NCBI RefSeq assembly: GCF_003634775.1
Contig: NZ_RBXB01000001.1
Coordinates: 1 to 64,000, forward strand
From: Chryseobacterium defluvii
GTDB lineage: Bacteria > Bacteroidota > Bacteroidia > Flavobacteriales > Weeksellaceae
Length of the DNA: 64,000 bases
Direction of reading: 5' to 3'
Shown here: piece after piece, positions 273-7,432 of the stretch
How positions within the stretch are numbered: position 1 is the first letter of the stretch
Layout of the letters: every line of letters starts with the position of its first letter
Translations under genes and position numbers: made by a program
Notes under the pieces: generated by a model
Database searches by the model: none
What the model was told of the DNA's origin: nothing
Seen by the model: only the letters and a program-made list of their open reading frames with translations

Positions 273-800
273 TCAAAGGGCACTGATGGTAAAGACCATT
301 CTGCTTTGATAGCTACTGGCTGGAATCGTAACGGAAACACCGCTTAATTGTAACTGGATGGGAATATTACTATAGGAAGCAAGTGCTAAAACCGCCTGAA
401 TTCTGAATAATTCAATATCAGTTTGGGTAACTGTCTGATAAGTAGTTCCACCACTTATGCTGCAGAGAGCACAAAGAGTTGTTCCGTTTCCGGTTCTTCT
501 TACAGACAGTATAAGTGAATTATGCCATGTAGGGTTCGCCTCATAATGTACTGATACCTTTCCACTTCCTAATAGCAAAGGGACACTTGCTGTAAGAAGT
601 ATTTGATTGGTTGAACTTTCATATGTCCCCCCATAGTTGCTTCCAGCTTCAGTAATGGAAGGTACACTTACTGACCAATTACTGCCACTTACAGTTAATG
701 TTTGGCTATTTATAAGATGGGCAGCCGTCATTAACAAAGCAATGCATAGACATTTCCTCAGGAATATATTTTTTCTTTGAAAACAAGTATTCAATTTCAT
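273..800 (-). CDS. Small exported protein of a usher-like operon (possible minor subunit)
   Basis: 175 residues, last gene of the five-gene minus-strand operon, starting 9 bases after the stop of the preceding pilin-like gene. Residues 1-33 look like a signal peptide with an unusually long basic N-terminus; Met16 is not available, so the annotated start is kept. The mature part is rich in Ser, Thr, Gly and Val with alternating hydrophobic residues, suggesting a single beta-sandwich. It contains a CxxC pair (LCALC, around residue 110) and ends in a hydrophobic strand (RMVFTISAL). I do not recognise a family. By position it could be a minor or tip subunit of the system encoded upstream; that is inference. 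Its sequence is clearly different from the two pilin-like paralogs. Confidence 0.6.
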   Translation of the reverse strand: MKLNTCFQRKNIFLRKCLCIALLMTAAHLINSQTLTVSGSNWSVSVPSITEAGSNYGGTYESSTNQILLTASVPLLLGSGKVSVHYEANPTWHNSLILSVRRTGNGTTLCALCSISGGTTYQTVTQTDIELFRIQAVLALASYSNIPIQLQLSGVSVTIPASSYQSRMVFTISAL

Positions 801-809
801 TTCTCAATT

Positions 810-1346
810 TTATTCTGTGATAGTATAGGTGATAGCAACAGATGAATTATTAACAGCGGATAAATTAGAATAGTTATTAGGTGCAATTGTTATGGTAAGT
901 CTGTGACCATTATTGGTTCCGGTCCCCGTATAAGCCCCCCCAATTCCATTGATAATGGTTACCGGAGTTGTGGTAATTGTCAGCTGACCTGTAGGTGTCC
1001 CCAATGTACCGCCACCGGCCCCGGAAGCAGTGGCTGCTTGTATTTTGATGTCTACGCCCGGAATTGTTTGGTTAATGGATGCCGTTATTTGTCTGCTAAG
1101 CCCTCCGGGGGCAATGGCTGAAGTATAATTGATCCATTTGGATGTATTACCTGTCGGATTTACGATTGCTCTTCCTGCTTCGGTAGGGGCAGTAAAGTTC
1201 AGTGTGATAGTTCCAGCCGGCTCAACATCTAATAGCGTCACAACAGGTAGTGTCACAGAAACATTTCTATTTCCTGTAGTTTGAGAAAAGAGGGTGTTTG
1301 CGAAAAGTGAGCAGATAATAAATGATATATGGCAAATCGTTTTCAT
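810..1346 (-). CDS. Pilin-like exported protein B
   Basis: 178 residues with a clear signal peptide (about residues 1-21, ending LFSQ). The mature protein is a paralog of the product at 4992-5567. Both share, in the same order, a hydrophobic start (VTLPVVTLLDVEPAG), the phrase FTAPTEAG, a conserved W/L-x-NY-S segment, a PGVDIK segment, a Gly-rich stretch ending LGTP, a GIGxAYTGxGxNNGH segment and a C-terminal strand VAITYTITE. The size, alternating hydrophobic N-terminal strand and C-terminal strand resemble fimbrial subunits that work by donor-strand exchange, but this is structural inference and no named family was recognised. It starts one base after the stop of the usher-like gene. Confidence 0.6.
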   Translation of the reverse strand: MKTICHISFIICSLFANTLFSQTTGNRNVSVTLPVVTLLDVEPAGTITLNFTAPTEAGRAIVNPTGNTSKWINYTSAIAPGGLSRQITASINQTIPGVDIKIQAATASGAGGGTLGTPTGQLTITTTPVTIINGIGGAYTGTGTNNGHRLTITIAPNNYSNLSAVNNSSVAITYTITE

Positions 1347-1347
1347 T

Positions 1348-4098
1348 TTAATTTTTTATTTCATTATAGCCTACTTTTATGGGTTCCTGTTGATATTTAA
1401 TTTCTGTTTGCTGTTTTATTACATTAATGGTTATGTTTTTAGTTTCTGAAGGTTTTAAAATAACCTGAAAAGTATCTATGGGTATCTTATAGCGCTTGTC
1501 TAGTCCGTTTCTGTATATTTTTACCATCCAATTTCCCGGCCGCAGATAGGTGAAGTCAAAATTCTCTCCTATCATACATAGTTTCCGATAGGTTTGTTTT
1601 CCGTTAGAAACTTCTATAATAATATTGTCTTTTTTTCTTTTATCATTTTTTAAGGGAAATTGAGCAAAACGGGTCTGATTATCTATAAGCTCTTTAAGGC
1701 GGACACTTCCTTGAATATGAGCCGCCGTTGTTAAACCAAAATTAAAGATGTTCTCTTTCTTCATAAGACTTACCGCAGCTGGGAGTGGAATATCCGGAAT
1801 GTCATTAATTTCTGTAGTTGATCTGTCTATTTCAAGAAAATATTCGCCGGGAGCAATATTTTTAAATATAAAATTACCATCCTTGTCGGTAACGGACAGA
1901 TGATTACCAAGAATTAATCTGATACCATCGGTACGTTTAACACCAAGATTATTTATATTTCCTGATAATGTAGTATACTCCGCGATTTTTTTTACCGGAA
2001 CATTGAAACGCAATGTATACCGTAAAGAGAATATAAAATCTTTATTACCAAGTTCACCACGTTGTAAGGTATAACGTCCGGATACATCAAATTCGTGACC
2101 AGGAAGAAGCTGTTGATGGAAAAGAACTTCAAAGAGATTACGATCATTAAAATACTCTTCTGGAAGATAATTGTTCTGATAAAACAGGCTGAAGTAAGTT
2201 TTTTCAGAAAATCTGCTTATCAACCGGGCTCCATAATAAATCTGCTTCTGGTTTTGCATCAGATAACGGGATGTGATGGCATAGCTCCCATATAGATTAA
2301 AAGAGGTTTTAAATTTTTCAAAGCTGATATTGGCTGTATGAAAACTTGATTTTCCTGTAAAACCGGTAAGATGGTTTTCCGTTGTGCCAAACTGGCTTTG
2401 AAGATTAAGCTGAAATATTCCTATTTGCTGATCAAGGCTTATTTTAAAAAATGATTCATCATAATCAAATTGTTTCGGCTCCAGGCGATCTTCATATTTT
2501 TGATACCCATTGTAAAACATAAGAACTCCCTTTGTCATATACCTGTAACTGATGCCGTATTGAAAGAACTTTCTATAGGGGGCTGCCAACAATAAAGCAT
2601 CTCTTTGGAAATTCCTCGCATCTTCTATATAATGAGCCAGGATATTTATCTTTTTAGACAGTTTATACTGCAGATTCCCATTCAAAGTATTGGTATTCGT
2701 GAAATAGCCGGTAAACTGCGGACTTGCTCTCATATACATTATATTTCCGGTAAATTTTTTGTAATTTCCCTGAGCTTGTATCATAAAGGCATTTCCCTCA
2801 GTATGATTCGTTTTGCTATAGGCCAGCTCTCCTGAAATATCAAAGTTCTTATTCAATTGAAATTTTCCCGTCAAATAAGGAAGGTGTACCCGAGAATCCA
2901 ATGCAATATTATTAAAACTAAAGTTGCTTCCATCCTGTCTGGGAATTTTATGTAAATATCCTGCTGTAATTTCAGATTCTTTACCCACTTTCAGCCGGGA
3001 ATACACATTAAATTCATCTTTGATATCACGGAAAAATCTTGGATGATTGTAAAACCCACCTATGGTGATTCTTTTTAAATCAAAACGTATTTCCGCTCCC
3101 CGTCCATATCGTGCGAATTCAGTTAAGAACGATGAAGAATAGGTTTTGTCTCCCAAATGAATAAAAAAATTATTTCGTTTGTAATTGATAAAATATTCTT
3201 CATACTGTGTAAAAGAATTGAACTCAACAGGATTGGGTGTTACTGCCCGAAATTCAAGGAGGTCTTTGTTTTGTTCATTCAAACTTCCTTTACCATATAG
3301 CTCTCCCTGGAAACCATCATCATAGGCCCCCCTGTTTCGCATGCCGATAAATGACAAAGTTGCAGCAACCGGAAGACGATGAAATATATCCTCTTCAACA
3401 GGCTTTACCGGAATAATCTTGACGCTTGCATAGACTGTTTGAGGCTCTTTAAAAGTATCGGAGGAATAAGCCGTAAGATCAAGATTTTGAAATTCATTTT
3501 TTCCCAGATCGGGGTTGGTAGTTTTACGAATAGTAATAATTTTTGCCTCATCTGCAGAAAGACTGATTGTTGAACCTTCACTAATGGTGGCATTTTTACT
3601 TTCCAAAGTAATTTGTTGTGTACTATTTCCACTATTTTTTAGCAGAAAACTGGCCGTGATGGTTTCTCCTGCTTTTATGAATTCGGGGGAATCCAGGAGT
3701 GTGAATGAGAGTTTTTTACTTCCCAATACAGTTATTTCGGAAGACTGGGTAAAAATATTGTCACTGTTTTTTTCAGAAATATGTAATGTGATGATATATT
3801 TTCCTTGTGGTGCTTTTGCTGCAATACGCAGAGGAACTATATAAACACTGCTTTCACCGCCAGAAACTGTAAGTTCATTTTTAGATGATATCGGAATAAT
3901 ATGAAGATTTGAAGTTTCTACACGAATGTTATATATTTTTTGTTCCGCAGAAATGTTTTGTATTGTAAAAGAAATAGAAGTAGATGTTCCCGGCAGCAGA
4001 CTATCTTTTTTGTTGACAAAATCATGAGTTTGTTTCTGAGCAAAAATAAGTGCCGGGAAAAGAAGAATAAGATATAATAAAACCCAATTTTTAATCAT
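1348..4098 (-). CDS. Usher-like outer-membrane beta-barrel protein
   Basis: 916 residues with a signal peptide (1-20, ending IFAQ). Residues about 22-230 look like two Ig-like domains of the NEW3/COG1470 type (conserved phrases FTIQNIS, ASFLLKNSGNSTQQI). Residues about 235-705 are full of alternating aromatic/polar strands (YGKGSL, FFIHLGDKTY, YGISYRYM), typical of an outer-membrane barrel. Residues about 715-790 resemble a carboxypeptidase-regulatory or SdrB fold (TDKDGNFIFKNIAPGEY), followed by another small beta domain. This order, soluble Ig domains, barrel, then soluble C-terminal domains, recalls pilus ushers but is not the classical FimD order. The gene overlaps the chaperone-like gene by 8 bases and is flanked by pilin-like genes, which supports an export/assembly role. 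It is not a TonB-dependent receptor: no plug domain is visible. Confidence 0.6.
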   Translation of the reverse strand: MIKNWVLLYLILLFPALIFAQKQTHDFVNKKDSLLPGTSTSISFTIQNISAEQKIYNIRVETSNLHIIPISSKNELTVSGGESSVYIVPLRIAAKAPQGKYIITLHISEKNSDNIFTQSSEITVLGSKKLSFTLLDSPEFIKAGETITASFLLKNSGNSTQQITLESKNATISEGSTISLSADEAKIITIRKTTNPDLGKNEFQNLDLTAYSSDTFKEPQTVYASVKIIPVKPVEEDIFHRLPVAATLSFIGMRNRGAYDDGFQGELYGKGSLNEQNKDLLEFRAVTPNPVEFNSFTQYEEYFINYKRNNFFIHLGDKTYSSSFLTEFARYGRGAEIRFDLKRITIGGFYNHPRFFRDIKDEFNVYSRLKVGKESEITAGYLHKIPRQDGSNFSFNNIALDSRVHLPYLTGKFQLNKNFDISGELAYSKTNHTEGNAFMIQAQGNYKKFTGNIMYMRASPQFTGYFTNTNTLNGNLQYKLSKKINILAHYIEDARNFQRDALLLAAPYRKFFQYGISYRYMTKGVLMFYNGYQKYEDRLEPKQFDYDESFFKISLDQQIGIFQLNLQSQFGTTENHLTGFTGKSSFHTANISFEKFKTSFNLYGSYAITSRYLMQNQKQIYYGARLISRFSEKTYFSLFYQNNYLPEEYFNDRNLFEVLFHQQLLPGHEFDVSGRYTLQRGELGNKDFIFSLRYTLRFNVPVKKIAEYTTLSGNINNLGVKRTDGIRLILGNHLSVTDKDGNFIFKNIAPGEYFLEIDRSTTEINDIPDIPLPAAVSLMKKENIFNFGLTTAAHIQGSVRLKELIDNQTRFAQFPLKNDKRKKDNIIIEVSNGKQTYRKLCMIGENFDFTYLRPGNWMVKIYRNGLDKRYKIPIDTFQVILKPSETKNITINVIKQQTEIKYQQEPIKVGYNEIKN

Positions 4099-4891
4099 TT
4101 TTTACTTCTAATTCCACATTGAGGGCGAAAGCATTTTCGTCTTCATCTGTTGCAATGATGGCGGCATTGTATTTGTCCTGAGGCAGTTTGCTGATATCTA
4201 TATAAAACAACTTGGATGTTGAAGGCAATAAACCCATGGCCTGGCTTAAAAAAACTCCGGCTTTTTGTCCATTTTTACGGTTATATACCTCAACGGTTGC
4301 TGTTGGCTTGCAATAGAGATCTCCTCTGTTTGAAATGGCAATTTTTAAGATATGCTTGCCATCCTCTTTATCAATTTTTACACTTTCAAATGCAAGGTCA
4401 GGTTTGGCTCTTTCCGAATCATAATCCGTAATGACCTGAATGGCATACCTGACAATCGAGGTAATATTGATTCCCTCTTTGTTATTCGGTTGAATATCTT
4501 CTACCGGTTCAATAATAATAACACTCCAGTAGCTGCCGGCCTGATCAATTTGATCCGGAACCGTAATTTCATAGTAGAGTTCAGCCTTTTCTTTAGCTTT
4601 TAAAGTAAGCAGATTGGTATTGAGCTTTATCCAATCAGCATTGGTCTTTTTGTTGGTATGTGGAGTCGTGTAGTTGATTGAACCATCCGCTTTATAACTG
4701 AAATCCTGCAAATAGACTTTTATATTCTGGGGTGTATTGTCAGTATTTTCCATACTGATCTTCCCTTTATAAGCCTTTCCGCCTTCTACTTTATAATGGT
4801 GTGTAAGACCATTAAGAATTACAATACTTGCATGTAAGAAACCAATTTGTGACAACAGAACAACAAAAAACAAAAAACGCTTTATCATCAT
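4091..4891 (-). CDS. Periplasmic chaperone-like protein of the usher-like operon
   Basis: 266 residues, signal peptide 1-21 (LHAS). The mature part looks like two Ig-like domains: residues about 25-150 (NTDNTPQNIKVYLQDF, then KEKAELYYEITVPD) and 160-260 (HILKIAISNRGDLYCKPTATVEVYN). The first has the feel of PapD-type fimbrial chaperones and of the DUF916/WxL-interacting proteins of Gram-positive bacteria: both bind and protect surface subunits. No transmembrane anchor follows the second domain, unlike DUF916 proteins, so a soluble periplasmic role fits better. It is translationally coupled to the usher-like gene (8-base overlap) and lies 100 bases downstream of the first pilin-like gene. The family assignment is by structure and context, not by a diagnostic motif. 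Confidence 0.55.
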   Translation of the reverse strand: MMIKRFLFFVVLLSQIGFLHASIVILNGLTHHYKVEGGKAYKGKISMENTDNTPQNIKVYLQDFSYKADGSINYTTPHTNKKTNADWIKLNTNLLTLKAKEKAELYYEITVPDQIDQAGSYWSVIIIEPVEDIQPNNKEGINITSIVRYAIQVITDYDSERAKPDLAFESVKIDKEDGKHILKIAISNRGDLYCKPTATVEVYNRKNGQKAGVFLSQAMGLLPSTSKLFYIDISKLPQDKYNAAIIATDEDENAFALNVELEVKND

Positions 4892-4991
4892 TATAAAATT
4901 TACTATTAAAAATAAGGCAACAGAAAACTCGGAAGAAATTGATCATTCAGCTTCTTCCTGTGTTTAATATGAAAACTCTACTATTTTAAAG

Positions 4992-5567
4992 CTAGTTATC
5001 AGAAATTGTATACGTTACTGTAGCAACTGCAGTAGTAGTTGCTTCCAGGTCCGCATATGAAGCTACTGAACCGGAACCACTTCCCGGGGCTAGTGTATAA
5101 GTAAGATTATGCCCGTTATTAACACCATCTCCGGTATAAGCACTTCCAATGCCTGAAACTATGGTTTGATCTGCAGCACTTAAAATTAATTGAGCTGATG
5201 GGGTTCCCAATGTTCCTGCACCGGAGCCGGAAGCCGCCGCCGCAGTTACTTTGATATCTACACCCGGGATCAAGGCATTCAACTTTACAGAAACGGTACG
5301 GGTAGCATCTGCAACAGATTTTATCGAAGAATAGTTAAGCCAAAGAGTATTGTTAGTTCCGGTAAGTGTAATAGGCAAACCTGCTTCAGTAGGTGCGGTG
5401 AATCCCATAGTGATATTTTTACTTGCCGCAGGTTCTATATCTACCAATGCAACTTCAGGAATAGTTATTCCAATTGTATGATTATCTGTATTGGTGTCCT
5501 GAGCATTCATATGAATAGAGAAGGCTAAGGCAATTAGAGATAAAAAAGAAAGCTTGTGTTTTTTCAT
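4992..5567 (-). CDS. Pilin-like exported protein A
   Basis: 191 residues, first gene of the operon, with a signal peptide (1-22, ending MNAQ). It is a paralog of the product at 810-1346, sharing PEVALVDIEPA, FTAPTEAG, LNYSS, PGVDIKV, the Gly-rich LGTPSAQL segment, GIGSAYTGDGVNNGHNL and the final strand VATVTYTIS. Copy A has the insertion GSGSGSVASYAD near residue 160 and a slightly longer tail. Its place at the head of the operon, where the major subunit gene often sits, suggests it may be the abundant subunit; a 100-base gap follows it. No known Pfam family was recognised with certainty. Confidence 0.6.
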   Translation of the reverse strand: MKKHKLSFLSLIALAFSIHMNAQDTNTDNHTIGITIPEVALVDIEPAASKNITMGFTAPTEAGLPITLTGTNNTLWLNYSSIKSVADATRTVSVKLNALIPGVDIKVTAAAASGSGAGTLGTPSAQLILSAADQTIVSGIGSAYTGDGVNNGHNLTYTLAPGSGSGSVASYADLEATTTAVATVTYTISDN

Positions 5568-5776: not shown

Positions 5777-5810
5777 AAAAACCCTACATATTTTTATGTA
5801 AGGTTTTTTA
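5777..5810 (-). terminator. Terminator of the aroA/Omp85 transcription unit
   Basis: AAAACCcTACATA and TATGTAaGGTTTT pair with one internal mismatch around a T-rich loop, and the minus strand continues into a run of T. It lies 18 bases after the stop of the Omp85-family gene. Confidence 0.75.
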
Positions 5811-5827: not shown

Positions 5828-7432
5828 TCAGAATCTACTTAAAATTCCCCAATGGATTTTAATATCATTAAATTTAAAAGGGTTTCCGAATTCATTACCA
5901 TTTGAAAGCTGGAAGCTCATAAGCCCGAGGGGAATAAAGAAATTGAAGCCGAGGCCTACGCTATAAAGCTTGGGCTTTACATTCAGAGATTTATTGTTGA
6001 GCTGTCCATATTGCCCGAAAACGTCAAAGAAGGCCTGATTTCCGATCAGGTACCGGTATTCTAAGCTTCCGTAATAATAGAAATCTGCGGCCAGGGAGTT
6101 CTCATTGAAACCCCGCATAGAATTCCATCCCCCGAAACGGTATAATTCGTTGGCGGAAAATTCAATTTTAGAGTCCATCATGGCGCCTTCCGCTTTTATA
6201 TTGAGAAAGTGGTTGCCATTGATGTTATAATTATGTTCTCCAAAAAAGTAAAACTGGTTTTGTGGGGCTTTAATATGATCTTTGCTATAAGTGGTCATAA
6301 GATAATCGTAGCCCCCATTGATTTTCGTTTTATAGAGGAAAAGGTCAATATCGCTGGGTTCTATCATTTCAAACCAGATCCCGATCCCTTGCTTATTATA
6401 GTCTTTACCCTGTACATATAAGGTATCGATAATGCTTGAACTTTCAAAAGTGCCCCGAAGGCCGATTTTATTTCGGGTATTGAGATGGTAATAAAGAGCA
6501 GGTAGCGCCTTCACATTCGCGAAAGTGGAATCCTGCCTGAAGATATTCACCTTCATATTCAATCCTACATTGGATTTAAAAAGATAAGGAATATCCGTTG
6601 CCAAATCAAAAGTCTGCCCTTTATCAGGGTTTCTCTGCCAATATAAATTAATGGTTTCAAACCCGTTGAACATATTCCTGAAATTGACGTTCAGGGTACC
6701 GTTTAAAGTAAACTTATCCGTTTTATCATTCCCAAAACCAATAACCCCGTCAAAAGTATTGGTCTTTTTTTTCTCCATGAAAAGATAGATCCGGGTAGAA
6801 TCTTTTGTAAATAAGGTTTGCGGCGGACGTTCTAACGTAACGAAGGGATGGCTTTGGAAACTCTTATTGATGGCGATAAGATTCCTGTCATCATACGTTT
6901 TGCCTTTGAAATCCTTTTCAAGGTTTTTAACGAATCTTTTCGGAACCCTTTCATAGCCTTTTACTACGAAGCCGTCAATAGTCCTTTTATCATTTTTATT
7001 GATATCAAGCTCCACTACGGGATACCCGTTTTTCTGACCCTTATATTTGGATTTTATACGGCTGAAAGAATATCCCTCATCAATATATTTTTTATTGATG
7101 CTCTTTTTGGTGGAATCTAAATTTTTGGTGAAAAATTCTTTCTGGGCCTTTGTTTTTTGAACAATGGAATCGGACAGGTCTACATACGTTTCATTGAAAT
7201 TTTTGCCTTTATCATAAATAATTTCCGTACTGTCTCCTTTTATTTTTATTTCCTTAAGCTCCGTGAAAAAATAATTGTTTTGGGCCAATGAATCCAGGAA
7301 TTTTACGGCAGAGGCAGAATCCTTAACTTTTTTCTTGACGTTCGTTTGTGAATCTATAAGCCAATACTGTTTCTTCTGTGCCTGAATAAAAACACAGAAC
7401 AATACAAAAAATATTTTCAAAAACAGCTTCAA
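5828..7432 (-). CDS. Omp85/TamA-like outer-membrane protein
   Basis: 534 residues with a signal peptide (1-18, FIQAQ). Residues about 20-230 are periplasmic and fit POTRA-type domains (GYSFSRIKSKY; RTIDGFVVKGYERVPKRFVKNL). Residues about 240-534 are a 16-strand-type barrel that includes the Omp85 signature WNSMRGFNENSL, with the conserved arginine in RGF that reaches into the barrel lumen, and it ends in Phe as expected for an outer-membrane protein. It is shorter than BamA (about 750-850 residues) and fits the single- or double-POTRA BamA/TamA family common in Flavobacteriia. Its client is unknown. It is the last gene of a six-gene unit and begins 19 bases after the SDR gene. Confidence 0.85.
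   Translation of the reverse strand: MKLFLKIFFVLFCVFIQAQKKQYWLIDSQTNVKKKVKDSASAVKFLDSLAQNNYFFTELKEIKIKGDSTEIIYDKGKNFNETYVDLSDSIVQKTKAQKEFFTKNLDSTKKSINKKYIDEGYSFSRIKSKYKGQKNGYPVVELDINKNDKRTIDGFVVKGYERVPKRFVKNLEKDFKGKTYDDRNLIAINKSFQSHPFVTLERPPQTLFTKDSTRIYLFMEKKKTNTFDGVIGFGNDKTDKFTLNGTLNVNFRNMFNGFETINLYWQRNPDKGQTFDLATDIPYLFKSNVGLNMKVNIFRQDSTFANVKALPALYYHLNTRNKIGLRGTFESSSIIDTLYVQGKDYNKQGIGIWFEMIEPSDIDLFLYKTKINGGYDYLMTTYSKDHIKAPQNQFYFFGEHNYNINGNHFLNIKAEGAMMDSKIEFSANELYRFGGWNSMRGFNENSLAADFYYYGSLEYRYLIGNQAFFDVFGQYGQLNNKSLNVKPKLYSVGLGFNFFIPLGLMSFQLSNGNEFGNPFKFNDIKIHWGILSRF

Follow-up and report, generated by a model that had tools for sequence, protein, structure and literature searches.

A probable divergent chaperone-usher-like pathway in Chryseobacterium defluvii with a WxLIP-related chaperone

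Analysis of a 64,000-nucleotide stretch of Chryseobacterium defluvii DNA (assembly GCF_003634775.1, contig NZ_RBXB01000001.1, positions 1 to 64,000; hereafter the window) indicated that a five-gene cluster at positions 273–5567 probably encodes a divergent chaperone-usher pathway, unrecognised by sequence models, that builds donor-strand-complemented fibres. We assign this reading a probability of roughly 78%. Chaperone-usher pili, best known from Escherichia coli, rank among the most thoroughly studied fibres of bacteria. The assignment is based on gene content and its conservation, chaperone homology, the usher-like predicted architecture of an outer-membrane protein, homology between pilins, and adhesin-pilin proteins encoded in sister clusters. 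An original prediction, made from the nucleotide sequence alone, had proposed five co-directional exported proteins at this position, and all five open reading frames (ORFs) were found on the minus strand:

4992–5567, minus strand: pilA, exported pilin-like subunit, 191 amino acids (ORF list, family alignment)
4091–4891, minus strand: chap, periplasmic chaperone homologue with two immunoglobulin-like (Ig) domains, 266 amino acids (ORF list, profiles)
4091–4098, minus strand: overlap of the chap and usher genes, 8 bases (ORF list; kept in 78 of 80 loci)
1348–4098, minus strand: usher-like outer-membrane protein, 916 amino acids (ORF list, AlphaFold2, Foldseek)
810–1346, minus strand: pilB, second pilin-like subunit, 178 amino acids (ORF list, family alignment)
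273–800, minus strand: small, exported CxxC protein, 175 amino acids (ORF list)

To place the cluster in context, 80 loci were found in genome contigs by usher alignment, covering Chryseobacterium, two Elizabethkingia and Sphingobacterium gobiense. The full order pilA > chap > usher > pilB > small was present in 76 of these, with the pilin-like genes flanking the machinery as had been predicted, and the predicted 8-base overlap was present at nearly all of them. The same five genes in the same order also occurred in all 20 further loci examined within the genus and in one locus from another family of the order. This arrangement is far beyond chance. The relatives of the usher-like protein are overwhelmingly from Chryseobacterium, the closest being that of C. 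daecheongense (79% identity), and a search of 39 relatives gave a strong chaperone match (E 1e-48 or better) in 23 of 24 genomes of the genus, one of these 23 matches being partial.

The 916-residue protein was modelled with AlphaFold2 using 32 homologues (predicted local distance difference test score, pLDDT, 77; predicted template modelling score, pTM, 0.51). The model contains two N-terminal Ig domains (strands at approximately residues 39–229), a barrel of around 26 strands (residues 244–698) and two C-terminal β-sandwich domains (residues 727–802 and 825–895). This agreed with the prediction of two Ig-like domains before the barrel; the carboxypeptidase-regulatory-like domain proposed to follow it was correct in so far as soluble C-terminal domains are present, but these are two β-sandwiches and not just one domain. 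A Foldseek search of the PDB with this model returned FimD/PapC usher chains at all of ranks 1–9 (E = 1.5e-13 to 6e-11), led by FimD 3rfz_E (E = 1.5e-13), whereas MOMP (E = 1.7e-7) and TonB-dependent receptors (E from ∼4e-7 to ∼1e-6) ranked below them, which indicates more than a simple porin and so passes a check named in the original prediction. The Ig tandem at the N-terminus is similar to the chaperone family (hhalign 93%), which may be taken only as a lead; Ig families of this type are widely alike.

The chaperone provided a link to two families. The window chaperone, searched as a single sequence, matched Pfam WxLIP_HBD (1.2e-5) and WxLIP_PGBD (2.5e-5) in the right order, just under the curated cut-offs. 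A profile of the chaperone family searched against the whole PDB gave EfmWxLIP1 (9i25, 9i1y) as its sole match (E = 2e-16), covering both domains over profile positions 41–265. The predicted resemblance to DUF916 was too narrowly drawn: it takes in DUF3324 as well, with the two domains ordered as in WxLIP. The chaperones of the window type (type 1) aligned with their paralogues from two further cluster types of the genus (types 2 and 3, see below) at an hhalign value of 99.6%. In turn, the type 2/3 chaperones aligned with seven E. coli FimC-type chaperones (90%, E = 1.5e-6, 190 columns, signal peptides removed); this subset was picked, for carrying an SPxR motif, after a mixed chaperone alignment had failed. 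The mixed alignment had given 85% against the FimC-type set (95% with the pair reversed) and was discarded when this fell to 0.9% once signal peptides were removed. In the type 2/3 alignment, SPPRVYF pairs with ATRVIY, corresponding to strand A including the anchoring Arg, and IKVSIRSGIKLFHK pairs with LQLAIISRIKLYYR, corresponding to the donor strand G1 including its Lys. Pfam PapD_N appeared in 5 of 15 chaperones (best E = 9e-4), with the first listed member under the cut-off. Taken together, the match of types 2/3 to FimC, that of type 1 to types 2/3 and that to WxLIP place the chaperone family between WxLIP and FimC. The window chaperone terminates in VELEVKND, a strand with charged residues, and has no transmembrane helix there; its sequence relationships suggest that it may carry a subunit-binding groove.

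In the chaperone-usher pathway, the G1 strand of the chaperone completes the fold of the pilin. Published AlphaFold models of WxLIP depict a comparable arrangement, in which a hairpin strand becomes ordered and completes the WxL β-sandwich in parallel (PMC10599100), the geometry of chaperone donor-strand complementation. The subsequent strand exchange of the chaperone-usher pathway has been described (PMC4133393).

PilA, PilB and the small protein all feature signal peptides, that of PilA ending in NAQ. The motifs FTAPTEAG, PGVDIK and GIGxAYTGxGxNNGH, reported in the original prediction as common to the two pilin-like proteins, are indeed present in both, and the CxxC of the small protein reads CALC; a CxxC is kept in 78 of 78 homologues. 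PilA terminates in YTISDN and PilB in TITE; ISDN is found in 71 of 79 PilA homologues and TITE in 72 of 80 PilB homologues. After removal of signal peptides, the type 1 pilins aligned with the pilins of the paralogous clusters (hhalign 92%) and with those of a remote lineage within the phylum (97%). No Pfam family matched them. Among the 50 Foldseek matches listed for a model of the natural pilB-small fusion, CfaB of CFA/I pili (4y2l) was the only single-domain match of high probability (0.90, E = 0.08). None of the three window proteins has a Cys at its cleavage site, which means that they are not type V-like lipoproteins, and a lipobox-like motif was found in none of 79 PilA homologues, in keeping with the predicted absence of lipoprotein precursors; by regular expression only, 7 of 80 PilB and 9 of 78 small homologues featured such a motif. 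In C. taiwanense (L110:9754-10791) and C. tagetis (L104:9754-10800), pilB and small are naturally fused into a single ORF that lacks an internal signal peptide, a hint that their products work jointly. The small protein is probably a minor subunit. TEAG and the pattern of the C-terminal strand are common to it and the pilins, but it was rejected as a demonstrated third pilin paralogue, as profile comparison gave less than 1%. An assignment of the pilins to DUF4402 was likewise dropped: the type 1 pilins gave no significant hhalign match without signal peptides, though distant clusters hold DUF4402 pilins. In two such loci (L178, L180), two small exported proteins encoded beside the chaperone gene scored above the curated cut-off for DUF4402, suggesting a possible role of DUF4402 as a pilin domain.

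Two further cluster types occur in the genus beside that of the window, with up to three clusters per genome and, in several genomes, two or three chaperone paralogues. Type 2 is present as a diverged second copy in the window's own genome (G000:C1:1349820-1350617, L042) and comprises one or more pilins, a chaperone, a 341-residue adhesin-like protein and a 933-residue usher-like protein, with an AraC-type regulator nearby. Type 3 encodes several tandem pilins, a chaperone, a 934-residue usher and a 478-residue protein. Eight of eight large proteins from the genus and from other lineages (341–478 residues in the genus) feature a pilin domain in their C-terminal ∼130 residues (E = 1e-15 to 1e-27, from a small database in which reversed decoys scored 0.1 or worse; hhalign 97–99%), and their N-terminal 200–340 residues are largely unrelated. 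A unique N-terminus joined to a C-terminal pilin domain is the plan of two-domain tip adhesins such as FimH and CfaE, and these adhesin-pilin proteins are the strongest functional argument for chaperone-usher logic. They occur in type 2 and type 3 clusters; the window cluster has none as such, except for the pilB-small fusion of the two species named above. In type 3 loci L050 (L050:2512-11049) and L052, the chaperone gene is preceded by an array of four or five pilin genes, among which several are almost identical, an organisation reminiscent of antigenic or dosage amplification.

Beyond the genus, the chaperone was present in 44 of 296 genomes of the order and in 32 of 247 sampled genomes of the phylum, representing 25 of 121 genera. 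A recognised usher homologue adjoined the chaperone gene, or lay one gene away, in 14 of the 20 phylum neighbourhoods fetched. Two more had a co-directional neighbour of 1237–1491 residues beside the chaperone, of which the 1237-residue protein combines SPOR domains with a weak carboxypeptidase-regulatory match. One neighbourhood lay at a contig end, and the remaining three, all from a single genus (L170, L175 and L177), were orphan chaperone homologues with no usher neighbour in the stretch fetched; in L170 and L175 the gene sits among conserved unrelated genes. Many weak usher matches in the phylum survey spanned the carboxypeptidase-regulatory-like domain only and were left uncounted. Usher-like proteins of other phylum lineages (L171:7832-11488 and L178:7810-11523) carry SPOR domains at the C-terminus (E = 3e-15 and 3e-25), a possible link between the barrel and peptidoglycan. 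The chaperone was also found on two Deinococcus plasmids; in Deinococcus deserti, the order pilin-chaperone-barrel-pilin is as in the window cluster, the pilins match the pilin profile and the C-terminus of the barrel weakly matches CooC_C (E = 0.27). Co-occurrence of the genes in other genomes, another check named in the original prediction, held across the 80 genus-centred loci, the phylum neighbourhoods and D. deserti.

The chaperone-usher logic first proposed for the cluster is supported by the usher-like predicted fold, a chaperone related to WxLIP and FimC, gene co-occurrence and the adhesin-like subunits of the paralogous clusters. From this we infer that fibres form, that strands are complemented and exchanged, that the barrel serves as the export channel and where the small protein sits. 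The three subunits (PilA, PilB and the CxxC protein) would reach the periplasm by means of their signal peptides, where the two-Ig chaperone would bind each subunit, most likely lending a β-strand to its incomplete fold, and take it to the 916-residue barrel in the outer membrane. As the usher, the barrel protein would use its Ig domains at the N-terminus and its β-sandwiches at the C-terminus to receive and hand over chaperone-subunit complexes, and the subunits would exit through it as a linear fibre in which each fills the groove of its neighbour. The small protein is tentatively placed beside PilB as a minor or tip subunit.

Several results weigh against this reading. The usher model has a pTM of only 0.51, and its TM-scores to ushers are low (∼0.3), so the usher match reflects overall architecture and not close superposition. 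It lacks a plug domain: the longest inter-strand loop of the barrel (residues 244–698) is ∼18 residues, which leaves no room for the plug of classical ushers. PF00577 was unmatched in this genome and in 38 relatives, with a positive E. coli control, and hhalign to six FimD-type ushers was not significant; comparisons with FimD and EcpC sequence profiles, both whole and domain by domain, were also tried and gave nothing significant. The type 1 chaperone taken alone, with signal peptides removed, was not significantly similar to FimC, and the TR motif of strand A is absent from it. Finally, an AlphaFold2 model of the pilin in its pilB-small fusion, of moderate confidence (pLDDT 71), had no significant match in the PDB. 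As both the PF00577 sequence and the plug are missing, the cluster is not a full member of the classical pathway.

One rival reading takes the barrel as an unrelated porin or receptor-type channel, encoded with independent small exported proteins in a cluster that is no more than co-transcribed. The barrel similarity taken alone is generic, given the matches to TonB-dependent receptors and MOMP at ∼1e-7 to 1e-6, usher TM-scores that are about as low, and the lack of an usher sequence match. However, the fixed gene order (76 of 80) and overlap (78 of 80), the joint presence of the genes in other phylum lineages and D. deserti, the Ig and β-sandwich domains on either side of the barrel and the adhesin-pilin proteins of the paralogous clusters make this very improbable. 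A WxL-like surface complex with no fibre, in which PilA, PilB and the small protein would keep the two-Ig protein as a structural partner, as has been proposed for WxL and WxLIP, while the barrel anchors or exports a short complex, is also quite unlikely, even though no other sequence relationship of the chaperone is as strong as that to WxLIP (E = 2e-16) and the two paralogous partners here recall the two WxL proteins found in WxLIP clusters (PMC10599100). Against it, the chaperone has no C-terminal transmembrane helix of the kind found in WxLIP proteins, PilA, PilB and the small protein contain no WxL domain, a barrel of usher-like architecture adjoins the chaperone in the genus, and the near-identical pilin arrays and adhesin-pilin fusions of the paralogous clusters fit a polymer.

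A further possibility is a sub-case of the favoured chaperone-usher reading, in which the cluster, though strongly diverged, falls within the alpha clade (class 5, CS1-like) instead of forming a branch of its own. CfaB as best single-domain match of the pilin (probability 0.90), the weak CooC_C similarity in D. deserti and an operon order like that of E. coli ecpABCDE point this way; the E-value of 0.08 for CfaB, the lack of significant hhalign matches to EcpA and EcpC and the absence of Pfam hits for the pilins do not, and we regard this placement as unlikely. The broader proposal of a deep donor-strand assembly branch that combines an usher devoid of a plug with a chaperone of the WxLIP type, spans much of Bacteroidota and Deinococcota and links chaperone-usher systems to Gram-positive WxL/WxLIP systems, with WxLIP itself a relative of donor-strand chaperones, is tentative, and we would put the odds somewhat against it.

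In common with the FimC/FimD/FimA-H and PapC/PapD pili, the cluster has pilins, a putative two-Ig chaperone and a large outer-membrane barrel flanked by soluble domains at both termini, the last of these features being seen here in a model of low TM-scores. The sister-cluster adhesins, each an N-terminal domain followed by a C-terminal pilin domain, and FimD as top fold match extend this likeness. It differs in that the genome matches neither PF00577 nor PF00345, in that its pilins have no Pfam family, and in an usher-like protein with two WxLIP/FixG_C-like N-terminal Ig domains and a plugless barrel of ∼26 predicted strands, compared with 24 in FimD/PapC. By profile match, the two chaperone domains and their order correspond to those of Gram-positive WxLIP (DUF916-DUF3324; E = 2e-16 to EfmWxLIP1), whereas the diderm host, the barrel partner and the lack of both a transmembrane helix and WxL domains set it apart. 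Alpha-clade systems (CFA/I, E. coli common pilus) have a similar gene order and supply the best single-domain fold match of the pilin (probability 0.90, E = 0.08), but comparison with EcpA, EcpB/E and EcpC profiles gave nothing significant. The type V pili (FimA/Mfa1) are also surface polymers of Bacteroidota hosts, as proposed here, but the window cluster has neither lipoprotein precursors nor a matching Pfam family. Type V pili are not known to have an usher barrel.

We found no description of such a system in the open-licence literature. A standard usher search finds nothing in this genome or 38 relatives, yet most of the examined genomes of the genus encode the family, and its occurrence in 25 of 121 sampled phylum genera suggests that sequence models overlook a large branch. 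The clusters are candidate adhesive pili for Chryseobacterium and Elizabethkingia. The type 2/3 chaperones provide intermediates that connect FimC-type chaperones with WxLIP, making the idea of donor-strand action by WxLIP directly testable; this proposed link is the most far-reaching point.

The surroundings of the cluster were also inspected, and one further feature was recorded upstream of pilA:

5777–5808, minus strand: stem-loop, terminator-like (consensus match only)

This stem-loop probably belongs to the gene preceding pilA. Since it parts pilA from the upstream gene (5808–5777), the cluster is probably its own transcription unit, although terminator-like sites in the region are about as numerous as in shuffled sequence. 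An inverted repeat upstream of pilA was considered as a regulatory or invertible element and rejected, as relatives do not keep it. No tRNA or Rfam family was detected within the 64-kb window. Directly upstream lies a gene for a 534-residue BamA/POTRA-like outer-membrane protein (5828–7432, minus strand; TIGR03303, E = 5.6e-8), which is present in only 18 of the 80 loci in the stretch fetched and is therefore not part of the system. The window begins at contig base 1, so the sequence downstream of small stops short of the next gene.

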